Assembly (NCBI GenBank): GCA_963377175.1
Contig: CAUJNA010002890.1
Span: forward strand, 805,510 to 869,509
From: Effrenium voratum
Lineage: Eukaryota > Sar > Dinophyceae > Suessiales > Symbiodiniaceae
Direction: 5' to 3'
DNA length: 64,000 nucleotides
The notes under the pieces are model-generated. The model did no database searches and was not told the DNA's origin. It saw only the letters and a list, made by a program, of their open reading frames with translations. The number at the start of each line of letters is the position of its first letter. Within the stretch, counting starts at the first letter, position 1. Made by a program: the position numbers and the translations under genes. Shown piece after piece: positions 3,557 to 62,938 of the stretch.

Positions 3557-3726
3557 GAGTTGACCTCAAATCGGCTGCGGGCGTCCTGAAACGCGCGGGG
3601 GGTTCCAACGAGGCCTGGCAGAAGGCAGAGCCCTTCAGCACCTTCGACGCCTTCCCGGTGCTGTCCCAGGCGTCGCCTTTCGGCGAAACGTCTCGCAGCG
3701 GGTCCCAGGCGAAATCTCCGGTTCTT
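3557..3726 (+). CDS. Exon of an unrecognised protein
   Basis: A GC-rich open frame reads DLKSAAGVLKRAGGSNEAW and then AEPFSTFDAFPVLSQASPFGE, with strong G/C at third positions. It directly follows element B1. The frame stops at TAG (3727-3729), but the same bases (AG|GTAGTG) also make a donor, so this may be an internal exon. No domain is recognised. The Ala/Ser/Gly-rich composition suggests a linker-like region. Confidence 0.55.
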
Positions 3727-5180: not shown

Positions 5181-5283
5181 TTGAGCCGCAATCAAAACCC
5201 GGGCAGACAAACGGGACAATCCCTGCCATAAACAGCTTCCGGCCCCCGACCATTTCAATACCGATGGGTTTTGAGTATGACTC
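5181..5283 (+). repeat. Family C element, copy C2
   Basis: TTGAGCCGCAATCAAAACCC at the left and GGTTTTGAGTATGACTCA at the right. The interior is shortened relative to C4. Confidence 0.75.
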
Positions 5284-5326
5284 AATGGTCGCCATAACAT
5301 TTAGATTTGAATCGAACAACCCCAGC

Positions 5327-5462
5327 TGAGTCACAATCAAAACCCGGGTAGGTGAAGGTTCGGAAGGGACAGTCCCAGCCACAAATTGATGCAGAGATCC
5401 GCCGAAAATTCTTGAAGCACCATCTTGGGTTTTGACCATCTTTGGTTTTGAGAAGGACTCAC
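5327..5462 (+). repeat. Family C element, copy C3
   Basis: TGAGTCACAATCAAAACCC ... TTTTGAGAAGGACTCA. It abuts C4 head to tail. Confidence 0.75.
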
Positions 5463-5602
5463 CTGAACCACGATCAAAACCCGGGTAGATGAAGGTTAGT
5501 AAGGGGCAGTCCCAACCAAAAATAGCTGCGGATCTCCGCTTCTTAAACATGATTTTGGGATTACGACCATTTTAATACCGGGTTTTGATTATGGCTCATG
5601 TG
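5463..5602 (+). repeat. Family C element, copy C4
   Basis: CTGAACCACGATCAAAACCC ... GGTTTTGATTATGGCTCA with the full interior (AGATGAAGGTTAGTAAGGG, GCTGCGGATCTCCGC). One of the best-preserved copies. Confidence 0.8.
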
Positions 5603-5810
5603 GCGTCCCCATATTCTAGGTCCCCCATATTGATAGTCGACCATCTTGGGTTTTGAGCCACACCTGGTGGGTCAAAAATGGGTACCCAAAATGGAGCCCA
5701 TGACTTAAACAGGTCCCCGAGTCGAGAAATTGACCGCACCTGAACCAAGTCCACCCCCGCACAAGAGCTCGAGGCTCGGGTCACCTGGGAACGCCCGGGC
5801 GCCCGACATG

Positions 5811-5962
5811 AGCCACGAGCAAAAAACCGGTTCGGGTAGATGATCCGGTTAGTAAGGGGAAATCCGCCAGAAATAGTTGCGGAGATCCGCCTTCCGACCT
5901 TATTGAAGCATGATTCTGGGAGTACGACCTTTTTAATACCGGGTTTTGAGTGTGACTCACAT
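5811..5962 (+). repeat. Family C element, copy C5
   Basis: ATGAGCCACGAGCAAAAAACC ... GGTTTTGAGTGTGACTCA. The fourth C copy within 800 bp. Confidence 0.7.
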
Positions 5963-6128: not shown

Positions 6129-6205
6129 TCTTGGGGAATTTAGTTGGGGGGGTCCATTTAACCCACTAAAAACTAAACTTGTAGCAGGGGATTTGAGGAC
6201 AGCCC
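6129..6205 (+). repeat. Family G element, copy G3
   Basis: TTAACCCACTAAAAACTAAA and GTAGCAGGGGATTTGAGGAC, as in other G copies. Confidence 0.6.
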
Positions 6206-7363: not shown

Positions 7364-7492
7364 GCCTTCCAGTTGCTGAAATGCAGATTTTGTTATTGGT
7401 ATGGTTCCTTGTTGGCTTTAAAGAGAACCTGCCACTACTGGACATATGTTTTTGTGTTTGTCCAGGGGGCATAAGCAGTAAGCACATGGAAG
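7364..7492 (+). repeat. Family E element, copy E1
   Basis: CCTTGTTGGCTTTAAAG, CACTACTGGACATATG and right end AGCACATGGAAG. Confidence 0.7.
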
Positions 7493-8409: not shown

Positions 8410-8521
8410 CTTCCATTTGCTTAATAATGTGTTTTTTTAATTTTCCCGTGTTGGTTTGAAAGGGAATCTATCACTGCTGGAAATATTTGTGTTTTTTCCT
8501 TGGGTCTTAACCAAATGGAAG
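8410..8521 (+). repeat. Family E element, copy E2
   Basis: Terminal inverted repeats CTTCCATTTGCTTAATAA and GGTCTTAACCAAATGGAAG. The interior has GTTGGTTTGAAAGGGAATC. Flanks GTGA/GTGC are close to a 4-bp target duplication. Confidence 0.8.
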
Positions 8522-8888: not shown

Positions 8889-8981
8889 ACCTGGAGTCTC
8901 CATGACCCTCTAAAAATGGGTCAATGCCCCCGCTATTTTGGATCATGACCCCATTTTTTGCGGGTCATGGAGACTCCAGGT
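8889..8981 (+). repeat. Family A hairpin element, copy A1
   Basis: TA|CCTGGAGTCTCCATGACCC ... GGGTCATGGAGACTCCAGG|TA: perfect terminal inverted repeats flanked by TA on both sides. Confidence 0.85.
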
Positions 8982-8984
8982 ATG

Positions 8985-9078
8985 TGTCATGTTCCCCTGT
9001 TGGTTTTCAAGGGTCTCGAGTTCACTACTGGGAAAAAAGTATTTTGGTTGTTTTTCACGGGGGACCTAAGCAAATGGA
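8985..9078 (+). repeat. Family E element, copy E3 (diverged)
   Basis: CCCCTGTTGGTTTTCAAGGG ... GGGGGACCTAAGCAAATGGAGG. Adjacent to A1. Confidence 0.6.
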
Positions 9079-10278
9079 GGGTTGGGTCTGCTCACTTCCT
9101 GCCTTCGTAGACTTGATCGTCACCTTTCTTTTGGGTTTGGAGCAGTTGAGCGGCAAACGAAAAGGTTTTTTTTTTGCCAATCCAGGACACCCCTCCTGTT
9201 CCGGTTGGTTTAAAAGGAGCCAAACGTTCAACAACATTTTTTGAGTACCCCCCCCTTTTTTGGCACACCCAATTGCTGTTTGGGGGGGCTTCTTTGGGGG
9301 CCCGACAATTCCCTTTGGGATGATTTAAGAGGGGATCAACGGCTGATTGTATAGCTTCATGTATGAACGCATTTGGGATCCTTTGGGGGGAGGTTTCCCA
9401 TAACTCAGCCATAGACTGCAAACGAGGGGCGTGTACCAGGGGTTCATATAATATAGGGACATATACATTCAGCCTTTAAGGGGAAGTATAGGAAGCCCTG
9501 CTTGCCCTAAGGCGCTTCTCAAAATGGTGAACCCCCCTTTGGGTTGGTACGGCGGATGCCAACTCAATATGGTGAGCCAGTGGGACCATTCAGACACCGA
9601 TTCTCTTGTACCATAACTTGCCATGGTTATATGTCTTCTAAGTGGGTTATAGCCAAGCTTGCTACCCACTTATGGTTATCCAGGTACCCGCTCGCCCGTG
9701 TAAGTAACCTGGATGTCCGAAATCCTCTGAAGTCACTTCCGCTTCCGGCCAGGGTCTTTTTCGGGGCGACCGAGTCTTTGCCCGGAGCCCCAAATGTCGA
9801 AATGACCTGCGGGAGGCGTGAGATGTAGCCCAGGAATCCCAATTTGGGGCCCTGAAAACAAGAAATTCCCCAAGTTTTCCAGTTGGGGTGGTCTTTCAAC
9901 GTTAAAGTGAGCTTTCTTCAACTGGAGGTTTGGATGTGGAAGGAACGTTTGAGCAATTTTAGGGATGCCTGACGTTCGATTGTCGCTGGATGTGTACATG
10001 TGGATTGCTATGTGCACGTGGCGTGGATAAATTGACCAACGTTCCATTGCATAAGCCTTTGCCTTCCACCCATGCTAGGTGATAAACTGCTCATGATGTT
10101 GAATTAGATAGTTCTTCCTGAACAAGTACGTTCGAAGTCCACCTTAATCGTTATTCCAAATTTCAGTGTCTTTTTGTTGTATTGACACAGAACCCTGTCA
10201 GGTTCCGTGTTGCTTGGTGGGAGGGTGTCTCGGTTTGGTTGGTTTTGTTTTCTTTTGTTTTCCTCATGACCAGACTCG
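9079..10278. other. Intron-like stretch with one weak coding patch
   Basis: Mostly AT-rich. At 9703-9828 an open frame reads SLPLPARVFFGATESLPG and ends at TAG, but the opposite strand is equally open and GTAAGT at 9698 could be a donor. I therefore do not call it an exon. Confidence 0.3.
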
Positions 10279-13789: not shown

Positions 13790-13851
13790 CTTTTTGGTTG
13801 AAATCAAGGGGTTTCCGCTAAACCCCCCAAAAGTTGTCCACTTTTTGCAGG
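13790..13851 (+). repeat. Family G-like element supplying an acceptor
   Basis: TTTTTGGTTGAAATCAAGGGG ... AAAAGTTGTCCACTTTTTGCAG. The G-family right end reads as a splice acceptor. Confidence 0.5.
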
Positions 13852-13893
13852 GGGCTCCTCGCAGCAACCAAGCTTGACTGCGGGTGTCCCTGG
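13852..13893 (+). CDS. Short exon-like segment
   Basis: Follows CACTTTTTGCAG and reads GSSQQPSLTAGVPG before a stop. Too short to identify. Confidence 0.3.
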
Positions 13894-14397: not shown

Positions 14398-14462
14398 TGT
14401 AGGGTTTAGTGGTGGCTTCCATTTAACCCACAAGTTAAACTTTTAGCAGGGGATCTGAGACC
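14398..14462 (+). repeat. Family G element, copy G4
   Basis: GTAGGGTTTAGTGGTGGC ... AACCCACAAGTTAAAC ... TTAGCAGGGGATCTGAGACC. Confidence 0.6.
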
Positions 14463-14802
14463 ACTCCAGATACTCTCTGGATAATCATGATGGAACCCAA
14501 ATGATATTATACCTTGGTAGAGGAGGCTCATCTACGGCCACAGGGAAAGTCTAGCTGTGAAGTGACGCGTCATGTTTCGAACATAGCTCCGAGACCCCCT
14601 GAACACGAACATGGTGGCAAGATCTCGGAATGAATGCTCCAGCTCAATCAGTTCGTATATGTCCCCCGAGTGGTGTGATGGTTGCAGAGGATATAGTATG
14701 GCCATGATTTTGTCGTAGGGAACCACCTGGATTGTGGTTGGTGAGAATCCCCACTTAATTCATGTCCACCAAAGGTTCCCAAATTCCGATGCATACCCAT
14801 TT

Positions 14803-14940
14803 GAGTCGCAATAAAAACCTAATTGGAGGGTAGTAAGGGATATTCCAAGCCATATGTGAGTGCGGGCGCCGTTTAAATCTTTGCATAGTTCTGGGTAGAC
14901 CATTTCAATACCGATCGGTCTTGATTATGACTCCTATGAC
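14803..14940 (+). repeat. Family C element, copy C7
   Basis: TGAGTCGCAATAAAAACCTA ... ACCGATCGGTCTTGATTATGACTCC. Confidence 0.7.
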
Positions 14941-15053: not shown

Positions 15054-15109
15054 TAGTCTTTCTTTTGAGGGTAACCCTTTGCATGACGGCTTTCAATGCA
15101 ACCAGTCCA

Positions 15110-15290
15110 TCCATTTGCTCAAGAACATGCTTTATTTTCCCCTGTTGGTTTTAAAGGGAAAAACCACGGAGGGTTTCGCGGGTGCTCGACGCAGGTCCAG
15201 CTGGGTGGCGAAGAAGGCCCGCTGCGCCCTGTTGGGGCTTAAATTCGTCCATTTGCTCAAGGATATGTTTCATTTTCCCAACGGCTTAAA
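15110..15290 (+). repeat. Family E fragments split by an exon
   Basis: TCCATTTGCTCAAGAACATG and CCTGTTGGTTTTAAAGGG precede the GC-rich segment at 15167. A second E left end (TCCATTTGCTCAAGGATATG) follows it. Confidence 0.5.
15167..15237 (+). CDS. Short exon-like GC-rich segment between E fragments
   Basis: Reads GFAGARRRSSWVAKKARCAL then LGLKF, basic, with G/C third positions. It is flanked on both sides by E-family sequence. Frame choice is supported by composition only. Confidence 0.4.
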
Positions 15291-15397: not shown

Positions 15398-15508
15398 GCC
15401 ATCCGGTTCCTTTGGCTTTTTGGACATTTTTAGTGTTTAGTGGTTGGGTTTCCAAATTTGACCCACTAAAAGTTGGTCACTTTTAGCGGGAGATCTGAGG
15501 GCAGCCCG
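15398..15508 (+). repeat. Family G element, copy G5 (full length)
   Basis: AGCCATCCGGTTCC, TTTAGTGGTTGGGTTTCC, GACCCACTAAAAGTTGG and CGGGAGATCTGAGGGCAGCC in the standard order. Confidence 0.7.
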
Positions 15509-15579: not shown

Positions 15580-15690
15580 TGATTTAAGTTTCCCCTGCCT
15601 GTTTCAAAGGGAATCAATTTCACGACTGGAAATATGTTTATTTTGTCCAGGGGACAAGAGCGCCAATGGAGGCATGGAACTTGCCTTTTG
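15580..15690 (+). repeat. Family E element, copy E5
   Basis: CCCTGCCTGTTTCAAAGGGAA, CGACTGGAAATATGTTTATT, TCCAGGGGAC. Confidence 0.6.
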
Positions 15691-16589: not shown

Positions 16590-17349
16590 CATGTGTTCAT
16601 CTCCGATGACTTGAAATGTGTTTGTAGTACCCCCACCACATTGAAATTGTTGGTGCCCTTATGTGACCTATAGAATACGTAGCTTTTGAACACTTCGAGC
16701 AATTACTCGACTGTGTTACTCGCCTAGCCGTTGAGCTTTGGGCAACCTGCCACTTGATGCCCATGCCGGCTCTTCAGCCATCCGGAGATGAGGCGTGAAA
16801 CGCAAGTTTGACGTGGTGTTCAACTAAGGCGCCCTGTCTCCTTTGTCATGGTTTAATTATCGACGCCAATTGAAAGGGCGTTCCTCTTTGGTGGCGTGTT
16901 GGTTTTAAGGTTTAAAATCAATCCTGCCGAGCAACAAACGAAACGAGGTGACTGATGTGGAGTAGAAACGAGCGAAAGCCCAGGATGAATGTGCCTACTT
17001 GGGGATCCCTTATTTGCAGTCGGTTTGCCGGGGTGGACTTAGGATACATTTACATGTTCCACTCTGACTCAAAGTGAAGCAACTGAATATTCATTCTATA
17101 CCTGGGCCGATCTCTAATCTGAATGCTTGTTGCTCATGGTTGAATAAGAATGAATTTGCCTGAAGCACTGTGCCTCACACATGCAAGGGCGTTGATTTCG
17201 GCGTTGAACAAGGGGTCGGGCCCGCCAATACCAAGTTTGATCAAGTCGGCCAAGTGGAGAAAGCGCAACACGGATGCGTGCAAAGGGTGCCTGGACCCTA
17301 GCCTTAAATTAGCTAAATACAGAGCAGCTTCAGAACATGTATTGTTGCC
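16590..17349. other. Stretch without a confident exon
   Basis: A + strand open frame at 17150-17360 (SGPPIPSLIKSAKWRKRN) has average composition and no clear splice borders. Confidence 0.3.
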
Positions 17350-17464
17350 TCCATGTGCTTAAGATGTGTTTATTATTGTTATTATTATTATCCCTTGTTG
17401 GTTTGTAACAGAATTCATCACTACCATATATATATATTATTCCTGGGGCCTTAACCAAATGGAA
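17350..17464 (+). repeat. Family E element, copy E6
   Basis: TCCATGTGCTTAAGATGTG, TTATTATTATTATTATC, CCTTGTTGGTTTGTAACAG and right end CCTTAACCAAATGGAAG. Confidence 0.75.
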
Positions 17465-18314
17465 GGTTGTCAACTAGTCAGAGGTAACAACAAAGGTTCT
17501 CCCGGGACCTAACACGAGGGCACTACAGCTACAAATGAACCATCCTAGGTGCTGGTAGACCCCTATTTTGTGTGAGAACGTATACAGAGGAGATTCATCG
17601 CTGTCCTTTTTAGGTTAGTTTGGCTGGAAATAGATGTTTTATTCCATACCAGGGCCATGTATTTGACCAAAAGGACACCTGGATTTTGGAGAGGACCTTT
17701 TATTCTTCGTTTGCAGCACTTTCTTATGGGTCATTTCGGCAGAAAAAAGAAAGACTCGGTCCATTGTGTGTCCAGGTAGACTACGCGAATACTTAACATG
17801 CAAAAGTAACACACAGAATCGTGAAAAACAGAAAAGACCATCTGTTCCGTGCTACACCCCAGGGGCCAAGTATTTTTGTTTTCTTTTGGTGGGTCCTGGG
17901 TTGCTCGCGGTTCCCGGTGACATCTTGAAGTTGGGGTTGATCCAAATTCCCTTCGGCCCCCAAATGACCATGGGTAACTTTTCCCATGTGGTTGACATGC
18001 CAAATCTGTTTAATCGTTTTTCCAACCACAAGGGCCATCCAATTTTTGTAGGACCCAGCCCCCATGTACTTAGGGAGTCAAAATGGGTGAAAGTACATGA
18101 TCGTGATGTTAGAGACCCCATATCCAACAGCAACCCCCTTTTGAGGGTCACCCAGATTTTGGTGGTTTCAAGGGGAAACCACGAAGGGAAATGGGTACCC
18201 TAAAGTAATAAGGAGCTTTTTTGATCTGCTTTTGGTGGAATCAAACAAAAACCACGAGGAAGATGGATCTCCTCGGTCATGTCAAAGGAGCTTTTCTGAT
18301 CGATCCAGCGCTAG

Positions 18315-19385: not shown

Positions 19386-19551
19386 CAAGATGACCAACAT
19401 GATCCTCACAACCCCCTCAACCGCTTACTCACTTGCCCAAGCCCACCCTTTCGACCTTTGTTTTCCCATGTTTGGTCCATTTTTAGTAACGGTCCCAAAA
19501 GGTGATCACCTTTGATTTCTGAGTCCCTAAGGGGCAACTGAGCTCAACTAT

Positions 19552-19671
19552 GTCCTCCAGTAGGGCCCTTTTACCGTTTCTTTTTTGGGGGAGGGTTCAC
19601 CTACTAAAATGGACTACAGAAAAAAAAAAGTCGGGCACCAACTTATTCTAACGTCTCTACTGGAGGACCTA
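19552..19671 (+). repeat. Family B element, copy B3
   Basis: TCCTCCAGTAGGGCCC ... CTCTACTGGAGGACCTAG, with interior ACTAAAATGGACTACAGA. Confidence 0.8.
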
Positions 19672-19927
19672 GCAGTTGTTTTTGTTTGGCAAAACGTGAT
19701 TGAAAAAAGAGACCCTTTGCATCAGGCGTTTGGAAAAAGCGTGTTGCTTGTTGAAGCTTACTTCAGACTCAAGCTGTTTGTTTTGGGGCAACTAGTTAAC
19801 CTTACCTCTTAAAAACACAACTTTTCAACTTTTTGGGGGTAACATGGGCTATATGTCTGTAAAAGATGAAAACTTCCCCAAGGCTTGGAGTTTTCAGGGG
19901 TAAGTACCGTGAGTGTGTTCCCTTCAG

Positions 19928-20073: not shown

Positions 20074-20161
20074 GCCCTAAACCCTAAGCCCCAAGCCCTA
20101 AACCCTAAGCCCTAAACCCTAAGCCCTAAACCCTAAGCCCTAAACCCTAAACCCTAAACCC
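20074..20161 (+). repeat. Interstitial telomere-type repeats
   Basis: About twelve units of CCCTAAA alternating with the variant CCCTAAG. The complement is TTTAGGG, the plant/dinoflagellate-type telomere motif. The block sits between exons. Confidence 0.85.
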
Positions 20162-27145: not shown

Positions 27146-27248
27146 CTTCCATTTGCTTGAGATTGTTTTCCCTTGTTGGTTTCAAACGGAATTTATCACT
27201 ACTGGACAATATATTTGATTCTTTCCCGGGGTCTTAACCAAATGGAAG
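27146..27248 (+). repeat. Family E element, copy E7, with TGAT flanks
   Basis: CTTCCATTTGCTTGAG ... GTCTTAACCAAATGGAAG. TGAT lies immediately on both sides, a likely 4-bp target duplication. Confidence 0.85.
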
Positions 27249-33109: not shown

Positions 33110-33208
33110 GCACATGAACATGTTTTATTTACCCTTGCTGGTTTTAAAGGGAATCTATCACTACTGGAAATATGTTTATTTGTTCCAGGGGGCTTAAGCA
33201 AATGGAAG
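33110..33208 (+). repeat. Family E element, copy E8
   Basis: CCCTTGCTGGTTTTAAAGGG, ATCACTACTGGAAATATG, GGCTTAAGCAAATGGAAG. Confidence 0.8.
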
Positions 33209-34402: not shown

Positions 34403-34503
34403 ATCCATTTGCTGAAATGAATATGTTGTATTGTCCCCTGTTGGTTTTAAAGGGAATCTATCACTACTGGACGTATTTTCCCCAGGAAACACCAAAGCAA
34501 ATG
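34403..34503 (+). repeat. Family E element, copy E9
   Basis: TCCATTTGCTGAAATGAATATG, CCTGTTGGTTTTAAAGGG, right end CAAAGCAAATG. It abuts C8. Confidence 0.75.
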
Positions 34504-34640
34504 AGTCACGTGCTCAAAACCGATTCGGGTAGATGAAGGTTAGTAAGGGACGATCCCAGCCATAAATAGCTGCGGATCTCCGCCTTAGTTCTTTAGTTCT
34601 GGGTCGAGCATTTTTGTACCGGGCTTTGATTGTGACTCAA
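34503..34640 (+). repeat. Family C element, copy C8
   Basis: TGAGTCACGTGCTCAAAACC ... GGGCTTTGATTGTGACTCA. Confidence 0.8.
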
Positions 34641-34879: not shown

Positions 34880-34975
34880 AACACTCTTGGTGGCAAGCCC
34901 AGCCATCCGGTTCCTTAGCCTTGTACTTCACCCACTAAAAGTCAAACACTTTTCGCGGGGGATCTGAGGGCTGGT
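34880..34975 (+). repeat. Family G element, copy G7
   Basis: CCCAGCCATCCGGTTCCTTAG, ACCCACTAAAAGTCAAAC, GCGGGGGATCTGAGGGC. Confidence 0.65.
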
Positions 34976-35615: not shown

Positions 35616-35722
35616 CTTCCATTTGCTTAAGAATGTTTCTTGTTATTTTCCCTTGTTGGTTTTAACAGGAATTATCACTACCAGGAAAAAATATGAATCC
35701 AGGAGTCTTAACCAAATGGAAG
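35616..35722 (+). repeat. Family E element, copy E10
   Basis: Terminal inverted repeats CTTCCATTTGCTTAAG and AGTCTTAACCAAATGGAAG. The interior is CCTTGTTGGTTTTAACAGG. The reading frame of the preceding exon is open through it. Confidence 0.85.
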
Positions 35723-35820: not shown

Positions 35821-36021
35821 TCCAAAGGAATAATCGATAGATAGATCATCAATGTCTATCAATAGTCCATGTTCTTTTTCTTTTGCCCTGGGTCTGCAAC
35901 TTGGGTTTTCCGCTTGGGTGGCCGATTCAGGCACGCGGTGGTTTTGAAACGGCCCCATCTTGCAGGAATTTGGGTCCAGGATGCCTTGCTTGGGTGAGAA
36001 ATACGCCCTACTCAACTATAT

Positions 36022-36140
36022 AGGTCCCCCAGTAGTGCCCTTTTACCGTTTCTTTTTTGGTTGGGAGGGTTCCCCTACTAAAGTAGACTACAGAAAGAAG
36101 GGCACTCTTATTAAAACCTCTCTACTGGAGGACCTAGTTA
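36022..36140 (+). repeat. Family B element, copy B4
   Basis: ATAGGTCCCCCAGTAGTGCCC ... CTCTACTGGAGGACCTAG. Confidence 0.85.
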
Positions 36141-36571: not shown

Positions 36572-36857
36572 ACATTTGGCGTCAAGAACTTGCTGGTGCT
36601 CAGTGGGGAATCTGGGAATGAACCCAGGGATTCCCTTAACTCACCTTTCCAAAGCCGACCTTTTAACCTTTTGGTTTCCCTGATTTGGTCCATTTTGGGT
36701 AAAGGTCCCAAAAGGTCAACCTTTTATTTCAAGGTCCTTTGGGCAAGTGAGTTAAAGGAAACCACAAGGGATGGTTATTACATGGGTCATTCCATTGCTC
36801 ATTCCCTGCCTATTGCACCAGCAAGGGAAGGCCAGGTGGTAGCAACCTCTGCCTGTG
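36570..36857 (+). repeat. Direct duplication, copy 1 (contains an H element)
   Basis: About 288 bp from GTACATTTGGCGTCAAG to ACCTCTGCCTGT, nearly identical to 37854-38142. It contains an H element with termini TTAACTCACCTTTCC and GGGCAAGTGAGTTAA (36637-36756). Confidence 0.9.
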
Positions 36858-37331: not shown

Positions 37332-37427
37332 ACCTGGAGTCTCCATGACCCGTTAAAACATGGGTCATTACCAAAAATGTTGGGGTCATTGACCCCATTT
37401 TTCAAGGGTCAGAAGGAGACTCCAGGT
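37332..37427 (+). repeat. Family A hairpin element, copy A6
   Basis: TA|CCTGGAGTCTCCATGACCC ... GGAGACTCCAGG|TA. Directly followed by B5. A degraded A copy lies upstream at 37207-37316. Confidence 0.85.
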
Positions 37428-37540
37428 AGGTGCCCTTTCACCCTTGTTTGGGGGAGGCTTCCCCTACTAAAATAGACTACATAACAAAAACCGGGTACCA
37501 ACTTATTCTAACCTCTCATATCTGGAGGACCTAGTCTAAA
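37428..37540 (+). repeat. Family B element, copy B5 (left end lost at A6)
   Basis: AGGTGCCCTTTCACCC ... ATATCTGGAGGACCTAG, with the left terminus missing where A6 ends. Confidence 0.75.
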
Positions 37541-37674: not shown

Positions 37675-37853
37675 CATTTTCAAGGGTCAGAAGGAGACTC
37701 CAGGTGAACCACAATCAAAACCTAGGTAGATGAAGGTTAGTAAAGGACAATCCCCTTGCCATAAAAATCGCTGCGGATCTCCGCCTTATTAATTCTTGAA
37801 GCATGGTTCTGGGTTCACCATTTTTATACCGATCGGTTTTGATTATGACTCCA
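37675..37853 (+). repeat. Family A 3' end fused to family C element C9
   Basis: CCCATTTTCAAGGGTCAG and GGAGACTCCAGG, then GTGAACCACAATCAAAACC ... ACCGATCGGTTTTGATTATGACTCC (C9, 37706-37852). Confidence 0.75.
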
Positions 37854-38142
37854 GGTACATTTGGCGTCAAGAACTTGCTGGTGCTCAGTGGGGAATCTGG
37901 GAATGAACCCAGGGATTCCCTTAACTCACCTTTCCAAAGCCGACCTTTTAACCTTTTGGTTTCCCTGATTTGGTCCATTTTGGGTAAAGGTCCCAAAAGG
38001 TCAACCTTTTATTTCCAGGTCCCAAAAGGTCAAGTGAGTTAAAGGAAACCACCAGCGATGGTTATGACATGGGTCATTCCATTTCTCATTCCCTGCCTAT
38101 TGCACCAGCAAGGGAAGGCCAGGTGGTAGCAACCTCTGCCTG
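37854..38142 (+). repeat. Direct duplication, copy 2 (contains an H element)
   Basis: Near-identical to 36570-36857. It differs at the centre (CAGGTCCCAAAAGGTCAAG replacing the H right arm) and by a few substitutions. Confidence 0.9.
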
Positions 38143-38264
38143 TTTAGGAAACCACCGCAAGGAAACCACAAGGGAAAGCCCACCTTTTAACTCCAGGTGC
38201 CCCGGAGAAAAAAAAAAAAAAACTAGACGACGAGTGGCCCGGAAGCATAGAGGCAAGTTGATGC

Positions 38265-39180
38265 AGGTGAGGTAACTCTCGCAAAGTTAGCATGAGGAGT
38301 TGGCAGGCGAAGCAATTCTCAAAAAGTTGGCATGAGAAGCTGGCAGGTTAAGTAACTCTCGAATAGTTGGCTGGCAAAGTTGGCGGGTGAAGTAATTCTC
38401 GCAAAGTTGACATGAGAAGTTGGCAGGCGAAGTAACTCAAGAGAAAAGTTGGCATGAGAAGTTGGCAGGTGAAATAACTCTCAAAGAGTTGGCATGAGAA
38501 GTTGGCAGGTGAAGTAACTCTCGAAAAGTTGGCGTGAGAAGCTGGCAGGTGAAGTAATTCTCGAAAAGTTGGCACGAGAAGATGGCGCGTGAAGTAACTC
38601 TCGAAAAGTTGGCGTGAGAAGCCGGCAGGTGAAGTAACTTTCGAAAAGTTAGCATGAGAAGTTGGCAGGCGAAGTAATTCTCGAAAAGTTGGCGCGAGAA
38701 GTTGGCAGGCGAAGTAACTCTCGAAAAGTTGGCAGGCGATGTTGGCAGGTGAAGTACCTCTCGAAAAGTTGGCATGAGAAGCTGGCAGGTGAAGTAATTT
38801 TTCGAAAAGTTGCCACGAGAGGTTGGCAGATAAAGTATTTCTCGAAAAGTTGGCATGAGAAGTTGGCAGGTGAAGTAATTCTCGAAAAGTTGGCAGGTGA
38901 AGTTGCCACGAGAGGTTGGCAGGTAAAGTATTTCTCGAAAAGTTGGCATGAGAAGTTGGCAGGTAAAGTAATTCTCGAAAAGTTGGCATGAGAAGCTCGC
39001 AGGTGTAGTAACTCTCGAAAAGTTGGCATGATAAGCTCGCAGGTGAAGTAACTCCTCGAAAAGTTGGCACGAGAAGTTGGCAGGTGAAGTAACTCTCGAA
39101 AAGGTGGCATGAGAAGCTGGCAGGTGAAGTAATTCTCGAAGTTTCGGCATGAGAAACTGGCAGGTGAAGTAATTAACCCT
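38265..39180 (+). repeat. 40-bp satellite array 1
   Basis: About 23 tandem units of 40 bp, consensus containing GGCAGGTGAAGTAACTCTCG and AAAAGTTGGCATGAGAAGTT. Each unit carries CAG|GTGAAGT, a donor-like hexamer. Long minus-strand open frames here only reflect the repeat. Confidence 0.95.
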
Positions 39181-39184
39181 CAAA

Positions 39185-39475
39185 AAGCTGGAGCGGCGGA
39201 GGCGCTCCGCGTGCTACATTTGCAATTTACAGTTGCGATTTTCCAGCCATTTGTATCTAAAAGTTGCGATTTTCCAGCCGGAGCTGCGGGAGCACGCTCC
39301 GCGTACTACGTCTGTACTTAAAAAGTGCGATTTTCCAGCCGGAGCTGCAGCAGCACGCTCCGCGTACTGCGTTTGTGCTTAAAAGTTGCGATTTTCCAGC
39401 CGGAGCTGCGGGGGTGTGCTCCGCGTACTACGTTTGTACTTAAAAGCTGTGATTTTCAAGCCGGAGCTGCCGCGG
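39185..39475 (+). repeat. 61-bp satellite
   Basis: Four to five units of 61-62 bp containing GCGATTTTCCAGCCGGAGCT and GCACGCTCCGCGTACTACG. Confidence 0.9.
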
Positions 39476-39545
39476 ACCAGGGGGGAATCGAGCCCGGGAC
39501 CGCGGGATTGCGAAAGCAGGCGCGCACACCACGAGACAACTTCCA
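39474..39545 (-). ncRNA. Degenerate tRNA-like relic (tRNA-Glu-like promoter boxes)
   Basis: On the minus strand the order GTTGTCTCGTGGTGTG, CCTGCTTTCGC and CCCGGGCTCGATTCCC resembles a tRNA D-arm/A box, a Glu-type (TTC) anticodon region and a T-arm/B box at normal spacing. The acceptor and anticodon stems do not pair, so it is a relic or a tRNA-derived SINE piece, not a working tRNA. It sits between the 61-bp and 73-bp satellites. Confidence 0.45.
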
Positions 39546-39570
39546 AAAGCCGTTTCGCGAGCAAGAAAAT

Positions 39571-40290
39571 CGCACGGCGCCACAGCGAGAGCGCTTCGAC
39601 ACGCACGATCTCCGCAGAGGGTTCATCGGGCTCAAGACAATCGCACGGCGCCACAGCGAGAGCGCTTCGACACGCACGATCCCCGCAGAGGGTTCATCGG
39701 GCTCAAGACAAATTCGCACGGCGCCACAGCGAGAGCGCTTCGACACGCACGATCTCCGCAGAGGGTTCGCCAAGGTCAAGACAAATTCGCACGGCGCCAC
39801 AGCGAGAGCGCTTCGACACGCACGATCTCCGCAGAGGGTTCGCCAAGGTCAAGACAATTCGCACGGCGCCACAGCGAGAGCGCTTCGACACGCACGATCT
39901 CCGCAGAGGGTTCGCCGGTCAAGACAAATTCGCACGGCGCCACAGCGAGAGCGCTTCGACACGCACGATCTCCGCAGAGGGTTCGCCAAGGTCAAGACAA
40001 ATTCGCACGGCGCCACAGCGAGAGCGCTTCGACACGCACGATCTCCGCAGAGGGTTCGCCAAGGTCAAGACAAATTCGCACGGCGCCACAGCGAGAGCGC
40101 TTCGACACGCACGATCTCCGCAGAGGGTTCGCCGCGCTCAAGACAAATTCGCACGGCGCCACAGCGAGAGCGCTTCGACACGCACGATCTCCGCAGAGGG
40201 TTCGCCAAGGTCAAGACAAATTCGCACGGCGCCACAGCGAGAGCGCTTCGACACGCACGATCTCCGCAGAGGGGTGCGTTTCGTAAGCTC
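39571..40290 (+). repeat. 73-bp GC-rich satellite
   Basis: Ten units of 71-73 bp (unit starts at 39571, 39642, 39715, 39788, 39860, 39931, 40004, 40077, 40150 and 40223) containing CGCACGGCGCCACAGCGAGA and GACACGCACGATCTCCGCAG. All frames are open for long distances because the unit lacks stops. I regard it as non-coding. Confidence 0.95.
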
Positions 40291-40424
40291 CCGTCGGGCC
40301 TACCCCCGCCATAAAAAGAAGAAGAATTAAGAGTCGAGATGTGAAGGTAGAACAGAAAAGTTAGCTTGTGTTTTTAGGATAGTGAAGTAACACCCGACAA
40401 ATTAGCTTGTGCTTTTAGTAGAAT

Positions 40425-40675
40425 GAGATAACAGCCGAAAAGTTGACATGAGAAGTTGGCAGGTGAAGTAACTCTCAAAAAGTTGACATGAGAAGTAGGC
40501 AGGTGAAGTAACTCTCGACAAGTTGGCATGAGAAGTTGGCAGGTGAAGTAACTCTCGACAAGTTGGCATGAGAAGTTGGCAGGTGAAGTAACTCTCGACA
40601 AGTTGGCATGAGAAGTTGGCAGGTGAAGTAACTCTCGACAAGTTGGCATGAGAAGTTGGCAGGTGAAGTTGGCAG
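40425..40675 (+). repeat. 40-bp satellite array 2
   Basis: About six more units of the 40-bp repeat, more homogeneous than array 1, running up to GTTGGCAG, which serves as a possible acceptor for the next exon. Confidence 0.95.
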
Positions 40676-40900: not shown

Positions 40901-41026
40901 GTAAGTTTGTTTCACTTGATCTTCAATTTTCTTCAGAATACTTTATGTTTGCCCTTGTTGGTTTGAACGGGCAATTATCACTACTGGACAGATTACTATT
41001 TTTTCCAGGGGACTTAACCAAATTTA
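40901..41026 (+). repeat. Family E element E11, forming the start of an intron
   Basis: The intron begins GTAAGTTTGTTTCACTTGATC and runs into CAATTTTCTTCAG, CCTTGTTGGTTTGAACGGG and GGACTTAACCAAATTTAG. The right end reads as an acceptor. Confidence 0.8.
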
Positions 41027-42721: not shown

Positions 42722-42822
42722 AACAAATGCAATTGTGTGGGCTTTTTTACCAAAACATCATGGCTGTTGTGCTTCTACTGGTGATATTTTCAATCTTTCC
42801 AGGGTTCTTAACCAAATGGAAG
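42722..42822 (+). repeat. Family E element, copy E12, supplying an acceptor
   Basis: TACTGGTGATATTTTC, TTCCAGGGTTCTTAACC and right terminus CAAATGGAAG. The next exon starts directly after this AG. Confidence 0.7.
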
Positions 42823-43154: not shown

Positions 43155-43271
43155 AAACTCACTTTCCCAAAGCCGACCTTTTAACCTTTTGGTTTCCCTG
43201 ATTTGGTCCATTTTTGGTAAAGGTCCCAAAAGGTCAACCTTTTATTTCCAGGTCCTTTGGGCAAGTGAGTA
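43155..43271 (+). repeat. Family H element, copy H3
   Basis: AAACTCACTTTCCCAAAG and, inverted, CTTTGGGCAAGTGAGT. Interior CCTTTTAACCTTTTGG and CCAAAAGGTCAACC. Confidence 0.85.
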
Positions 43272-43599: not shown

Positions 43600-43690
43600 T
43601 TGGTTGTTCCCAGCTGTCCAGTCCATGTAGCTTCTAGAAGTTTAGGGGGGGTCCATTTAACCCACTAAACCTTCAACTTTTAGCAGATCG
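43600..43690 (+). repeat. Family G element, copy G8
   Basis: TTCCCAGCTGTCCAGTCC, TTTAACCCACTAAACC, AACTTTTAGCAGATCGGAGG. Confidence 0.6.
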
Positions 43691-44754
43691 GAGGCCCCAG
43701 TAGAATGGTCGTGGGGCCGGTTTAGCTGACCCATAGGCAAACAGCGCCACTTCCCAGTGGAACCCATAGTTTCAATCGTTTCAAGCCCGGGGGTATATTT
43801 CGGTTCCTTTGGTCTGCCTTGACATGAAACCCACCCGAAAGTCCCTTGTTAAAAAGAAAGTCCGCCAGGGACCCTCCGCGCGGTTCCATGTTTGGGTGGG
43901 AGGTACCTGTGTAGTAGGTTTAGACATCACCTGACACGGGTCCTAGTTTCCACATTTAGGGTTGCTTTTGGTGGGATGGGTTCCTAGAAAAGCCGCGTCT
44001 TGAGCCTTGGCTTGCTTTGAGGCTTGGTTTCCTTTTTTTCTTCTCCAAATGGGGGGACGGTCGTTGCCTCGCTGGGGTGCTACTACTAAAAAACAAAAAC
44101 CGCCTCGTTGCCTCACTGGAGTGCTGCTTCACTGGGGCTCGCTGCCTCAAAGATTTCAATAACACCTTTGCTTTTTCTTTTCTTTAATATAATAAAAAAA
44201 AGCACACACACAACAAAAACACATGTATATATATATATATATAAGGGGGTCGATGCTTGTGTGTTTAGTTGTTTGTTCGTTTAGGATTCTGCTTGGGGCT
44301 TCGGTGGGCTCCCTGGAGAAGAAAGCACACAGCTTGAGATCATTTGCCTCGCACCCTCCCGCTTTGTCGGGGGACCAAGATATATCAAACCACCTTGAGG
44401 GAAGACTAGAAGATATCAAACTCTTTGTTTGGTGGGATTTGGTGAGATTTGGTTAGATTTTGAGGGAAGACTAGAAGATATCAAGCTCTTTGTTTGGTGG
44501 GATTTGGTGAGTTACTTGAATCTTTGCCCGAAACAGTGGTGCCCTTACTTGATTTTTCAGCTTTGGTGTGCGGTGTTCTCGGTCCTGATGCTTTGCACAG
44601 TTCAGAGGTGACCCTTAGTGAGCCCCTAAATGTTAAAGGTAATGGTTTGGGGGTACACTTGAATGTTATTGGGTTGAATCTTGAACTTTGAATGATTCTG
44701 GAACATGTGTGGTTCCGCATACACCAGCAGACATTAGCAGTTTAGCCTTTTAGT
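43691..44754. other. Intron-like stretch
   Basis: Contains an (AT)n run at 44226-44243 and two tandem copies of GGGAAGACTAGAAGATATCAA with their flank (44399 and 44463). No convincing exon. Confidence 0.4.
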
Positions 44755-44815
44755 CTTTAGTGATACTTTCCATTTAACCCACTAAAAGTTAGTCACTTTC
44801 AGCGGGGGATCAGAA
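44755..44815 (+). repeat. Family G element, copy G9
   Basis: TTTAGTGATACTTTCCATTT, AACCCACTAAAAGTTAG, TCAGCGGGGGATCAG. Confidence 0.6.
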
Positions 44816-44967
44816 AACGGGCAGCCCAGATATCAAGGCGCATTCAAGCGCTTGAACAAATCAAGGGCGCAACGCAATTGACATGCCATCCCGAAAGCTG
44901 AAGTGTGGGTTGAGCTTCGATGTGTTCATTTCGACGTACCAAAAATTAGGGATCCCTTATCTGGTAC

Positions 44968-46274: not shown

Positions 46275-46402
46275 GAACTTCGCCTGGGCATCCATGGCAA
46301 ACGGGAACTACGACGTTTGCTCTGAGGGGCAGGTCCTGTCACCCCAGCACTCCGGCATCGCATTTCAGGCGAAGGATCTGTTCAGAGGCTCACTTGTCCT
46401 AC
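46275..46402 (+). CDS. Exon of an extracellular-type region
   Basis: Both borders are strong: TTGCTCAG|G at 46274 and CTAC|GTAAGC at 46403. It reads NFAWASMANGNYDVCSEGQ then VLSPQHSGIAFQAKDLFRG. N-F-A-W-A recalls the N/D-F-V-W segment that follows the L-C-G-G helix in the unnamed dinoflagellate family, so it probably belongs to the same gene as 35461 or to a tandem paralogue. The intron after it starts inside an H-type element. Confidence 0.7.
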
Positions 46403-46500
46403 GTAAGCGAAGCGACCTTTTGACCTTTTGGTGTTCCTGCAATTTTTAGTGGCCCCATAAGGTTGACCATTTATTTCAGGGTCCTTTCGGCATCTGTGGC
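46403..46500 (+). repeat. Family H element, copy H4, at an exon border
   Basis: The exon donor GTAAGCGAAGCG leads directly into CCTTTTGACCTTTTGG, GTTGACC, TTATTTCAGG and GTCCTTTCGG, the H order with decayed ends. Confidence 0.65.
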
Positions 46501-47378: not shown

Positions 47379-47441
47379 CTAGGTCCCCAGGTATTGCCCT
47401 TCTCTCCCCTTTTTTGGGGGAGGGTTACCCTACTGACCTAG
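47379..47441 (+). repeat. Family B element, copy B7 (short), with TTAG duplication
   Basis: CTAGGTCCCCAGGTATTGCCC ... CTACTGACCTAG, flanked by TTAG at 47375-47378 and 47442-47445. Confidence 0.8.
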
Positions 47442-51054: not shown

Positions 51055-51126
51055 ACCCAATGGCGATGAGTTCTGGTGTCGAATTTTCCAGACCCAGCAC
51101 CAAGATTTTCCTGTTCAGGTTACCCA
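51055..51126 (+). CDS. Exon interrupted by element B8 (5' part)
   Basis: A strong acceptor (CTTCTTTTTCCCCAG, AG 51053-51054) is followed by PNGDEFWCRIFQTQHQDFPV, then Q-V-T and the first two bases of a His codon (CA, 51125-51126). Element B8 begins at the next base. After B8 and its CCCA duplication, the T at 51250 completes CAT and the frame runs on as VCGSVRCQ. The conventional alternative, CAG|GTTACC as donor (51119) with CCTAG at 51245 as acceptor, puts the following exon in another frame. Confidence 0.65.
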
Positions 51127-51245
51127 CTAGGTCCCCCAGTGCCCTTTTGCCCCTTTTTTGGTTGGGAGGGTTCCCCTTCTAAAACAGAAGTCCACAAAAA
51201 AAATCGGGTAACCTTATTCTAACCTCTCAAATCTGGAGGACCTAG
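51127..51245 (+). repeat. Family B element B8 inside a codon, with CCCA duplication
   Basis: CTAGGTCCCCCAGTGCCC ... CTGGAGGACCTAG, 119 bp, flanked by CCCA at 51123-51126 and 51246-51249. Removing the element plus one CCCA restores an open frame. Confidence 0.85.
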
Positions 51246-51249
51246 CCCA

Positions 51250-51345
51250 TGTTTGTGGCTCGGTTCGGTGCCAGGTGTATTCGGATGCCTGTTCGCCGAG
51301 CACGGACTTCACCAAGTCCTGTGACACCTGGGAGCCCCGTGGCCG
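51250..51345 (+). CDS. Exon interrupted by element B8 (3' part), cysteine-rich
   Basis: Continues the frame from 51055-51126 and reads VCGSVRCQVYSDACSPSTD then FTKSCDTWEP. Third positions are G/C-richer than in the alternative frame that begins with ATG at 51249. Five cysteines match the cysteine-bearing style of neighbouring exons and suggest a disulphide-rich lumenal or extracellular region. A donor may lie at CCCC|GTGGCC. Confidence 0.6.
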
Positions 51346-51584
51346 GAAAAAATCGGACCCAAAGCGGCCTGAGATGCGGAGGTGTTGTTTTTTTCCTCGG
51401 GGGCGGGGGGGGTGGATGTTTGTTTCCTTTGTTTTTTTTTGGGGGGGGGGATGGATGTTTTTGATTGTTTTTTTTTGGGGGGAGGGGGTGTGGGAGAACC
51501 CTTGTTGCAATAGTTGTTCAAAGGGAAGCGCCTTGGCTGTGGATGTTTCTTTTCTCTTTGTGGGGGGGGAACCCTTGTTGGGAT

Positions 51585-51677
51585 ACCTGGAGTCGCCATG
51601 ACGCCTAAAAAATAAGATCATTACCCAAAACAATGAGGTCATGAACCCATTTTTAAGCGGTCATGGAGACTCCAGTT
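51585..51677 (+). repeat. Family A hairpin element, copy A9
   Basis: TA|CCTGGAGTCGCCATGACG ... GGTCATGGAGACTCCAG. Confidence 0.8.
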
Positions 51678-52015
51678 AGTTTTTAAAGGGAAGCCAAAAG
51701 GAGAACCACAACTTTGAGGCTCCCCGAAGAAGAGACACATGTCATCCTGGACCTTGTTGTTGACCGCTTTCTTCTGCCGGAATGGCCCACAAAAATCGAA
51801 CAAACACATAACATGGGTTTGTTGGGGCCCAGAATTGTCCAACAAGGGGCCTGCTCCTAGGCTTCCATTGGCTGAAATTAATCTTGCCTAGATAGCCCAG
51901 TTTTTTTTTTTTCGCCGTCACTGCGGGTTTTTGGGGTAAAGTGCATGGGGAAAAAAAGCAACTGGCAATCCGATCGATGTTGATTTTCCTCGGTTGGTTG
52001 AGGGAATCCATAACT

Positions 52016-52111
52016 GCCTGCAGTCTCCATGACCCTTAAAAAAGGGTGAATGACCCCATTATTTTGGATAATGACCTACCATTTTTTAAGGGTCAGAAGG
52101 AGGCTTCAGGT
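52016..52111 (+). repeat. Family A hairpin element, copy A10
   Basis: GCCTGCAGTCTCCATGACCC ... GGGTCAGAAGGAGGCTTCAGG. Confidence 0.75.
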
Positions 52112-52929
52112 GGACCTCTCTCTGCCCTCCTTTTTGTCCGCCGGGGCGTGAGGGTGTCCAATGCCCGGAGAATTCCAATCGATGGGAGGTTTCGGAGGTA
52201 CCAAATGACGACCGCGAGGAAACCATCCATCCAAAAGGTACCCGTGGACTTATGGAAACCGTTGGGGTCAAATGCAGAGGATCTCTCAGGAATCAGGTTG
52301 TACATCCTTAGGTACTTCAGGGGGAAATGGGATATAACCCAACATCATGGCTGGTGGATTCCCTTTCAGGGTAGATGGGGTCCATAATTTTGTCATTTGA
52401 ATTAGACAATCAATGGATTTCAGTTTCGATTACTTCGGCTTGGGCCTCCTTTACATGGCAAAAAAGAAAAAGAAACTGTTTTTTTGGTAGCCCCTACTAA
52501 AATGAACAGAACCATTGTTGGAAAACACACAAACAAAAACAAACACATGCCAACGACAGTGAAGCGTCCCATTGGTTTTCTCGGGGTGGGCAAGCCTTAG
52601 TTGGTGGTTTGGATTGGTGGTTTGGGGATTTGATTTGAACTCCTGGTTCTCGTGGGAATTAAAGGGGACACCACCCCCAAACCTTCGAACCACAAATCCA
52701 AGCCACCAAGCAGAGGGAATCCAAGCCACCACGTTTGCTGGGTCCGCCGATTTTATCACACACCCAAGTCCAAATAATTTGGATCGACGTGTTCCGTGCA
52801 CGGGGTACTCTTGGCGTGCCAGGCTGTTTGGTCCCAACCGCCAGGTTTCGAGGAACCTCCAAAATTGTCATTTTCACTCTTTGGTGCATTTTGCCAAGGG
52901 ATGTTAGGACTGAATCACTTGTTGCCAAC
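52112..52929. other. Intron-like stretch with weak coding patches
   Basis: The frame after A10 (LSALLFVRRGVRVSNARRIP) is open to 52386 but lacks splice borders. The rest is AT-rich. Confidence 0.3.
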
Positions 52930-58566: not shown

Positions 58567-58655
58567 AAGCACAATCCTTGCTTGGTGGTTTGGATTGGTG
58601 GGGTAAGTGGGTACCCACAGTCCTCCATTTGCTTAAGCCCCCTGAAAACAAACAG

Positions 58656-58743
58656 CGTTTCGTTCACTCGCGAGGAGAGTATCAAGAACGCCTTGTCCTG
58701 GGCGTGGCAAATGCCCGTCACGAGCCTGGAGATCCTCGGACTT
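58656..58743 (+). CDS. Exon of an unrecognised protein
   Basis: Follows CTGAAAACAAACAG (AG 58654-58655) and ends CTT|GTTTAT. It reads VSFTREESIKNALSWAWQMP then VTSLEILGL, with high third-position GC, and includes an amphipathic helix. A decayed E left end (TCCATTTGCTTAAGCCCCC) lies just upstream. It belongs to a gene downstream of the terminal exon at 53.9 kb. Confidence 0.6.
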
Positions 58744-58917: not shown

Positions 58918-59030
58918 TCATTCGCTGAATTGTTTTTTTGGTGTGTTTTCCCTTGTTGGCTTTAAAGAGAGTCGATGTTACTGCTGGACATAGCTTTATT
59001 TTTTCCAGGGGGGGTAAAGGCACATGGAAG
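58918..59030 (+). repeat. Family E element, copy E13
   Basis: CCCTTGTTGGCTTTAAAGAG, TACTGCTGGACATAGC, TTTTCCAGGGGGGG, right end GCACATGGAAG. Confidence 0.75.
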
Positions 59031-60017: not shown

Positions 60018-60510
60018 AACTTGGATGGTCCAAAAGGTTTCCCTGGTTGGTCCATATTTTGTCAAGGGTCCAACAGGTGAACCCTGTATTTTCACGTCCT
60101 TTGGCTAAGTGGCTTGCTTGAATGTTCGACCAACGTGCTAACCAACGTGGGGTACAACCCGTGGGCTACAAATAGGGTAATTGGGGTTGGTTGGGGTTGG
60201 TCCCCCTATAAATATCTTCATAGTTTTGGTAACTTGGATGGTCCATATGGTTTTCTTGGTTGGTCCCATATGTTGTCAAATGTTTCCATCAGGTGAACCC
60301 TAGATTTTTCACGTCCTTTGGCTAAGTGGCTTACTTGAATGTTCAACCAACGTGCTAACCAACGTGGGGTACAACCCGTAGTTGCAACTAGGGCAGTTGG
60401 GGTTGGTTGGGGTTGGTCCCCCTATAGACTATAGATATCTTTGTATCTTTCGTAACTTGGAGTCCATATGGTTTCCCTCGTTGGTCCCATATTTTGTCAA
60501 TAATTGTCCA
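60018..60510 (+). repeat. Tandem repeat of about 215 bp containing an H-like element
   Basis: AACTTGGATGGTCCA recurs at 60018 and 60231 and, diverged, at 60454 (periods 213 and 223 bp). Each unit has TTGGTCCATATTTTGTCAA, CACGTCCTTTGGCTAAGTGG and CCAACGTGGGGTACAACCC. Confidence 0.85.
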
Positions 60511-61944: not shown

Positions 61945-62150
61945 CCCAGCCATCCGGTTCCTTCGCCTTTTAGCCTTTGACCTGGAGTCTCCATGACCCG
62001 AATCAAAAATGGGTCAATGACCCCAACATTTTGGGGAATGACCAACCTTTTTTCAAGGATCAGAAGGAGCCTCCAGGTAGATCTTAGTGTTTTGTGGTAG
62101 TTTCCAAGTTTAAGCCACTCCAAGTCAGACACTTTTAGCGGGGGATCAGC
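61945..62150 (+). repeat. Family G element G11, split by A15
   Basis: CCCAGCCATCCGGTTCC and TTTTAGCC lie before A15. TTTTGTGGTAGTTTCC, AAGCCACTCC and CTTTTAGCGGGGGATCAG lie after it, the normal G order. Confidence 0.7.
61980..62078 (+). repeat. Family A hairpin element A15, nested in G11
   Basis: GA|CCTGGAGTCTCCATGACCC ... CAGAAGGAGCCTCCAGG|TA. Confidence 0.85.
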
Positions 62151-62655: not shown

Positions 62656-62824
62656 GCGCGAAGCCGGGGAGAGTTTCGAGAGCGGAGCGCGAGAGCGGAG
62701 ATTCTCGAAGTCACTCGAGTTGATGGACTACAAAACTGGTTGGAAAGACAAAATGCTACATGATAAGTAAAAGTTCAAGCTGTTTTTGGGCAGTCTACTC
62801 AAGAAGTGAGGCCCAGTGAAGAAC

Positions 62825-62938
62825 TTCCATTGTCCGAAATGAATCTTGGTTGTAGTTTCTGCTGGTTGTAAAGGGAATCGAGCTCACATATGGAAACGAT
62901 GTTCGTTCTTTGAAGGTTCGAACACGCAAATGGAGAAG
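62825..62938 (+). repeat. Family E element, copy E14 (decayed)
   Basis: ACTTCCATTGTCCGAAATG, CTGCTGGTTGTAAAGGG, CGCAAATGGAGAAG. Confidence 0.6.

Follow-up and report, generated by a model that had tools for sequence, protein, structure and literature searches.

Introners, including those of dinoflagellates, are short non-autonomous elements, some of which bear terminal inverted repeats (TIRs) and 4-bp duplications, as set out in the accessible text of one report (PNAS 2022, PMC9860276); according to the same text, a Symbiodinium introner carries its own 3′ splice site. For the introner elements of Amoebophrya, the available sections of another report give inverted repeats (IR) of 8-20 nt, direct repeats (DR) of 3-5 nt and no internal transposase (BMC Biol 2021, PMC7789003). 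Dinoflagellate gene arrays and dinoTADs form, according to the accessible portions of two further papers, long domains that run one way and meet at convergent boundaries (Nat Genet 2021, PMC8110477; Genome Biol 2024, PMC11071213). No mention of orientation across whole domains was found in the available parts of the introner literature, and the accessible text of PMC8110477 does not mention transposons or their orientation as an array marker; the open literature, as far as its text was available, yielded no account of transposon orientation following dinoflagellate arrays, although Roy et al. 2023 (Curr Biol), on introners, might contain one.

We analysed a 119-bp element, B8, within the window, the whole 64,000-nucleotide stretch under study (C2888:805510-869509), in a genome of 1,155,904,702 bases and 3699 contigs. 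B8 resembles introners in its repeat structure, with an IR of 13 bp and a DR of 4 bp that lie inside the Amoebophrya ranges. The Amoebophrya introners, however, are introns confirmed by RNA, most of which lack GT-AG borders, whereas B8 is known from DNA alone. Introners are defined as introns, and the B family differs from them in having flanks no more open than controls. With MITEs, B8 shares a length of about 120 bp, TIRs, a fixed-length duplication, a high copy number and the absence of a long ORF; the B family is unlike MITEs in its one-way orientation, while other short families of this genome are mixed. To our knowledge, MITEs are not characterized by pointing in a single direction across megabases. 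Since the defining trait of an introner, a coding position, is missing at the family level, we file B8 as MITE-like and orientation-locked. Quite probably, B8 inserted as a MITE-like element into the non-coding DNA of a long, unidirectional array of dinoflagellate type, in which several families occur in the sense orientation only.

The B8 element and its family

B8 occupies window positions 51127-51245 on the + strand, in the sense orientation of the B family. Its TIRs, CTAGGTCCCCCAG on the left and CTAGGTCCTCCAG read from the other end, have 12 of 13 bases in common, and the element is surrounded by an exact 4-bp duplication of CCCA (Table 1). Stop codons in all three + frames leave it without coding capacity. 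The + strand folds better against shuffles (z -2.66) than the - strand (z -1.23). B8 also contains TTCTAACCTCTC...CTGGAG, a putative branch-point/acceptor-like stretch.

A genome search with a 401-base query around B8 returned 3474 first-look candidates; 40 of these were scored and all 40 matched. Among these scored matches, one of which is B8 itself, 39 cover the element, and the best relatives of B8 lie on other contigs (82-90% identity), with window neighbours at 76-83%. Used alone as a genome query, the downstream flank of B8 found no match beyond itself. In all, the window and other contigs supplied 36 near-full B copies of 111-132 bp. Exact 4-bp duplications border 13 of these 36 copies against 0.14 expected (binomial p 1e-22), four of the 13 being CCCA, and a comparison with mismatched flank pairs gave 13 of 43 observed against 0.5 expected. 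Copies and duplications thus exceed chance, so that both the mobile element and the target duplication at B8 are genuine. The proposal of the initial annotation, a 119-bp B element between two CCCA copies, is upheld by the letters, the family matches and the 13/36 duplications, and B8 is confirmed as a mobile DNA copy whose insertion at this site duplicated 4 bp of the target. B8 and its family are short and non-coding, with TIRs, duplications of fixed length and a high, dispersed copy number, as in MITEs.

The window holds further repeats. At 20075-20161, in the interior of the contig, the telomere-type repeat CCCTAAA occurs about 12 times. In the tandem arrays at 38263-40675, 40-bp units around AGTTGGCAGGTGAAGTAACTC flank a 73-bp unit on both sides; the latter is present in about 10 copies with 96% matches and creates long repetitive ORFs. 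B, F10b, Lk33759 and L055:1855-1976, which are otherwise unrelated and include locked (one-way) and free families, have in common the word CACTAAAA or TACTAAAA.

Table 1. Features of B8 and copies of the element families in the window (window positions)
Feature	Position	Strand	Basis
target-site duplication, left copy CCCA	51123-51126	+	letters
target-site duplication, right copy CCCA	51246-51249	+	letters
left terminal inverted repeat CTAGGTCCCCCAG	51127-51139	+	12/13 with right end
right terminal inverted repeat	51233-51245	-	12/13 with left end
putative branch-point/acceptor-like stretch TTCTAACCTCTC...CTGGAG	51217-51238	+	sequence, family divergence
possible conventional GT-AG intron, keeps the annotated frame, hypothetical	51119-51238	+	splice-pair reading
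B copy, two abutting matches	3397-3565	+	profile
B copy	19548-19672	+	profile
B copy	36020-36137	+	profile
B copy, left end replaced beside A19 element	37422-37534	+	profile
B copy, duplication TCAA	41236-41355	+	profile
B copy, shortened, duplication TTAG	47379-47441	+	profile
B-like match, weak, 25 bits	29257-29324	+	profile
B-like match, weak, 24 bits	33772-33845	+	profile
B-like match, weak, 22 bits	54068-54141	+	profile
F12 copy	7366-7492	+	profile
F12 copy	8410-8521	+	profile
F12 copy	8980-9080	+	profile
F12 copy	15109-15160	+	profile
F12 copy	15583-15671	+	profile
F12 copy	17348-17465	+	profile
F12 copy	27146-27248	+	profile
F12 copy	33113-33208	+	profile
F12 copy	34403-34503	+	profile
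F12 copy	35616-35722	+	profile
F12 copy	40921-41023	+	profile
F12 copy	42775-42822	+	profile
F12 copy	58918-59030	+	profile
F12 copy, weak	62824-62934	+	profile
F12-like match, weak partial, 18 bits, below counting threshold	58622-58659	-	loose-threshold profile
F10b copy	2132-2195	+	profile
F10b copy	2761-2831	+	profile
F10b copy	6139-6200	+	profile
F10b copy, weak	13807-13853	+	profile
F10b copy	14400-14462	+	profile
F10b copy	15431-15502	+	profile
F10b copy	34921-34971	+	profile
F10b copy	43628-43696	+	profile
F10b copy	44751-44817	+	profile
F10b copy	62085-62149	+	profile
F6 copy	1363-1415	+	profile
F6 copy	19428-19534	+	profile
F6 copy	36640-36744	+	profile
F6 copy	37925-38029	+	profile
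F6 copy	43158-43262	+	profile
F6 copy	46389-46492	+	profile
F6 copy	60036-60104	+	profile
F6 copy, weak	60243-60321	+	profile
F10a copy	3157-3286	+	profile
F10a copy	5178-5283	+	profile
F10a copy	5323-5460	+	profile
F10a copy	5460-5597	+	profile
F10a copy	5806-5958	+	profile
F10a copy	14797-14933	+	profile
F10a copy	34498-34639	+	profile
F10a copy	37701-37851	+	profile
F10a copy, single antisense exception among nine in window, 90 bits	7517-7653	-	profile

Coding and splicing signals around B8

Removal of the element and one CCCA copy (123 nt) joins the flanks into an open frame, ...QDFPVQVT-CA/T-HVCGSV... (slashes mark junctions here and below). The arithmetic of the initial annotation, which read Q-V-T-CA and then T across B8, is correct, and the openness of this frame is not above chance. 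Two different downstream frames are open at the junction. Among the 36 B copies, joined flanks were open in some frame in 26 over ±45 nt (0.79 of control positions), in 21 over ±60 nt (0.64) and in 11 over ±90 nt (0.41 of controls, same loci). Compared with these controls, the 36 copies gave no sign of the family-level interruption of coding sequence that characterizes introners, a comparison that addresses the family and cannot decide for B8 singly. A tidy duplication together with an open frame says little in favour of an exon, as about four in ten control positions match over ±90 nt.

A codon score was trained on 3184 codons of HSP70-type exons of the same genome. The joined frame reached -0.128 per codon and the alternative frame -0.313, which bears out the annotated preference for the former; the 5th percentile of the HSP70-type exons, scored on their own training set, was +0.17. 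Within the window, the joined frame nevertheless ranks in the top 9% of all 66-codon stretches that are open. No convincing Pfam domain was detected in the six frames of the window or in 120 of 285 ORFs (at least 75 aa, outside tandem arrays); matches to low-complexity PT (7.6e-06), Phasin_2 (5.5e-05), PsaN (0.0024) and weaker ones were taken as chance or repeats. A search for homologues of the joined protein, in which only proteins of similar length were compared, returned five candidates and none at E<=10. On the sense frames of 27 B loci the strongest Pfam matches were Yae1_N (0.0019, in 3 of 39 members) and PPR (0.0034), followed by weaker ones. Rfam and ARAGORN gave no matches, and neither did phages and viral contigs. 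Thus, of the claim that a DNA element had inserted into an exon, the insertion with its 4-bp duplication stands, and the exon finds no backing in Pfam, homologues, codon score or controls. The codon apparently split by B8 is best explained as a chance reading, and we infer that the flanks of B8 itself are non-coding.

Two readings would nevertheless make B8 an intron. In one, B8 lies in an exon and is removed together with one duplication copy, as an unconventional intron, by way of the direct repeats; such removal has been proposed for the introners of Amoebophrya and for the nonconventional introns of euglenids, the latter being marked by RNA pairing of their ends and by variable borders. 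Its repeat lengths suit the published Amoebophrya values as far as these are given in the accessible text, the 123-nt removal leaves the frame open and the sense strand is the better-folding one. Yet the flanks of the family are no more open than controls, a second frame is also open at B8, the codon score lies below that of exons (for all its rank among the open stretches of the window) and the search among similar-length proteins found no homologue. The initial annotation had offered either unconventional splicing or a compensating choice of sites, having noted that the nearest GT-AG pair shifts the frame. That is so for 51119/51245; a second pair, donor 51119 (CAG/GTTACC) with acceptor 51238 (CTGGAG/G), keeps it, a reading that concerns the existence of candidate sites and not their use. 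With this compensating pair at hand unconventional splicing is not required, and excision at the duplication was dropped, since it is superfluous and no coding signal backs it (splice pair, open-frame controls, codon score). Two HSP70-type genes, read by eye, have GT, GC or GA donors with AG/G acceptors (GA and GC donors in that of L045), for which the ordinary spliceosome suffices; these sites differ from the borders of Amoebophrya introners. GC and GA donors with AG/G acceptors are also tabulated in the available part of a dinoflagellate paper. Removal as an unconventional intron is accordingly very improbable. In the other reading, B8 is a conventional introner that uses the host donor at 51119 and the acceptor at 51238 in its right end, as in Symbiodinium. 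The frame-keeping GT-AG/G pair speaks for it, as do the dinoflagellate introners with 4-bp duplications, TIRs and their own 3′ splice site in the accessible published text, and an intron-making element would need the sense orientation only. Against this, the 27 B loci give little coding signal and the flanks are no more open than controls, so that intron creation fails to explain the orientation of the family; moreover, the F12 copy in an HSP70-type gene (L045) sits inside a longer intron, away from its borders, and GAG is a poor splice acceptor. We therefore regard a conventional introner as unlikely, and retain the insertion into non-coding DNA.

Orientation of the element families and its extent

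At E<=1e-4, every B match in the window is on the + strand, and comparison of the window with itself revealed several unrelated one-way families beside families present in both orientations. Profile counts (+/-) were 11/0 for B (6 above 60 bits, and two abutting pieces of one place counted among the 11), 14/0 for F12, 10/0 for F10b, 8/0 for F6 and 8/1 for F10a. The mixed families gave 13/9 (A19), 4/3 (F6m) and 7/6 (F14); A19 and F6m are weak orientation controls because they are largely palindromic, and F14, although intended as an asymmetric mixed control, is partly self-complementary (6 opposite-strand overlaps). No overlapping opposite-strand matches occurred for B, F12, F10b or F6, and F10a has 8. 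A19 is a palindromic element, TACCTGGAGTCTCCATGACCC..., found in both orientations at window 51578-51681, 52012-52117 and 17 more places. Slightly inward of its ends, 2-bp duplications are in excess (16, with 10 expected), which may reflect a TA-type duplication.

At B loci on other contigs the B copy itself set the strand, so that independent evidence comes solely from the remaining families. These agreed with the local B copy in 9/9 (F12), 6/6 (F10b), 4/4 (F6) and 2/2 (F10a) cases, and B-B pairs had the same orientation in 9/9; among the mixed families, agreement was 2/9 for F6m, 0/1 for F14 and 1/1 for A19. Taken together, B, F12, F10b and F6 contribute 111 copies in 20 domains of at least two copies each, with none in the minority orientation, and the addition of F10a brings the minority to 1 of 129. 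Applied with looser thresholds to 52 orientable loci, these four profiles found 123/0 copies at E<=1e-4 and 136/3 at E<=0.01, the three being partial, weak matches of 13-18 bits; at E<=1 noise appeared on both strands.

Profile-free clustering of the same 281 kb yielded more locked-type families and also asymmetric free-type families. Exceptions arose in the clusters of F12 (15/1), F6-containing (18/3), F10b-type (6/1), TGAG (8/1) and F10a (17/1). With trimmed single seeds F12 (13/0), F6 (9/0), F10b (10/0) and TGAG (19/0) were free of them, and only F10a repeated its exception (14/1). Other locked seeds gave 9/0 (Lk1240), 9/0 (LkL030) and 4/1 (Lk33759). The cleaner free families were FrL038 (11/10), FrL059 (3/4), FrL026 (2/3) and Fr45804 (4/2), with FrL049 (6/1) and FrL056 (9/3) lopsided. 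Ends resembling CTCACTTG are common to F6, LkTGAG and Lk33759 despite different middles (window 36640 and 33759; L059:2370). At least four unrelated families are thus shown to occur in only one orientation per sampled domain, the sample being one genome, with two contigs taken at several points and the rest mostly 3-kb pieces picked by similarity to B8.

On the contig of the window (C2888), eight 5-kb segments chosen by position between 100 kb and 1.8 Mb carried 17 copies (one of them F10a), all on the + strand, and the one-way orientation spans 1.7 Mb. On C3075, represented by twelve pieces, ten chosen by position and two via B8, the copies with F10a included were 13/13 + at 280-374 kb and 4/4 - at 430-584 kb, giving one flip between; six pieces held no copy and the split was set post hoc. 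This switch is of convergent type and resembles a convergent boundary of dinoflagellate arrays. With repeats masked, the B sense strand carried more T than A at 26 of 27 B loci (Wilcoxon 1e-7; mean AT skew -0.064) and more G than C at 18 of 27 (p 0.014); unmasked, 24 of 26 loci were T-rich on that strand. Along C3075 the AT skew was negative at 280-414 kb and positive from 430 kb, with +0.051 at 60 kb and about 0 at 180 kb, and the 410-kb piece (L063, assigned to the right side) resembled the left side in AT skew and the right side in GC skew. The orientation flip on C3075 goes roughly with base skew.

Genes provided a further comparison. At HSP70-type loci identified by profile, all nine locked or F10a copies were sense to the gene (L043, L045, L047, L048), and L010-L021, L042, L044 and L046 had none; L067 and L068, beside kinase genes, held no copy of the tested families. 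For the C2888 and C3075 segments, Pfam matches in frames of the strand predicted to be sense, extrapolated for segments without an element copy, were DUF4326 (2.4e-8), dynein light chain (5.3e-6), DSPc (0.0012) and PT, and the opposite strand gave only low-complexity PT (6.1e-07). The dynein motif, the only domain match that was placed, lies on the - strand of L064, in the direction predicted to the right of the C3075 switch. No spliced leader sequence was found in the window within 3 mismatches. The orientation domains agree with the few genes found, and the element direction appears to be the direction of transcription.

Other features of the HSP70-type loci were also recorded. Tandem HSP70 arrays are present on C15, C538, C515 and C862, and several tandem copies share an intron of about 105-125 bp near profile position 107 (by eye, AA/GTTCCC...CTCAG/G). 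L010 (C3134:1865874-1867661) and L011 (C2223:2226288-2228081) contain intact, intronless, bacterial-looking DnaK frames that appear alphaproteobacterial by eye and may represent contamination, a chimeric contig or transfer; C3134 also bears B copies about 100 kb from the DnaK frame (L003).

Causes and meaning of the fixed orientation

Cut-and-paste elements are expected to insert in either orientation. For B8 the probable course of events is that a short, coding-free TIR element (about 120 bp, 4-bp duplication) inserted into non-coding DNA of a stretch transcribed one way, like the unidirectional gene arrays of dinoflagellates, to which the host probably belongs, and that B and at least three unrelated families are inserted, or kept, only in the sense orientation.

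Exact 4-bp duplications were found at the ends of B (13/43), F12 (6/18) and the CTCACTTG group, which includes F6 (9/15). Neither F10a (11 copies) nor LkL062 (3 copies), two families at or close to full locking, had any, and A19, F6m and FrL002 showed no clear excess; small excesses at shifted positions appeared in FrL055 (4/26) and Fr45804 (up to 5/15), and the patterns of FrL038 (268 pairs) and Lk1240 (108 pairs) were disregarded as too loose. Duplications in three locked groups and their unclear state in mixed families give a hint of shared insertion machinery, and the tie between duplication and locking is suggestive only.

The cause of the locking may lie in insertion or in selection. Strand-selective insertion would be slightly favoured, with selection nearly as likely, a slight lean that comes from the three locked groups with exact 4-bp duplications and from the mixed families sharing the same DNA. 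We suggest tentatively that several unrelated TIR families integrate strand-specifically according to the direction in which the DNA is transcribed, perhaps at the exposed strand of an R-loop or in a supercoiled array, which would make nearly all copies face one way over megabases. Selection would lock orientation if an antisense copy brought a signal, such as a premature 3′ end or a splice or trans-splice site, that harms the array transcript while sense copies are harmless. This possibility deserves serious weight, though short of an even chance: orientation matches gene direction where genes were found and holds over the sampled non-coding stretches, but 0/111 would demand near-absolute selection in non-coding DNA, and AG/G acceptors, the single signal scored, fail to separate locked from free families. 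A shared acceptor signal (pyrimidines followed by AG/G) was rejected as the locking cause on this comparison of 11 locked or nearly locked with 9 freer families; the B family itself scored 8.0 in sense and 10.0 in antisense. The concordance could also be an artefact of local duplication, locus choice or ambiguous palindromes, since the B loci were picked for their resemblance to B8 and took their orientation from the B copy that each contains. The C2888 segments and 10 of the 12 C3075 pieces, however, were selected by position, the four strictly one-way families are free of opposite-strand overlaps, and the mixed families in the same DNA act as a control; local duplication is rejected because the closest relatives of B8 sit on other contigs and not beside it in the window. 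An artefact can be discounted almost entirely.

Families strand-locked over megabases, side by side with others that are mixed, would need strand-sensing insertion or strong selection on array-long transcripts, and either cause bears on intron gain and array transcription in dinoflagellate-type genomes. If several families do integrate in step with transcription, element orientation could serve as a strand compass that reveals arrays and their convergent boundaries from DNA alone, in unannotated genomes.
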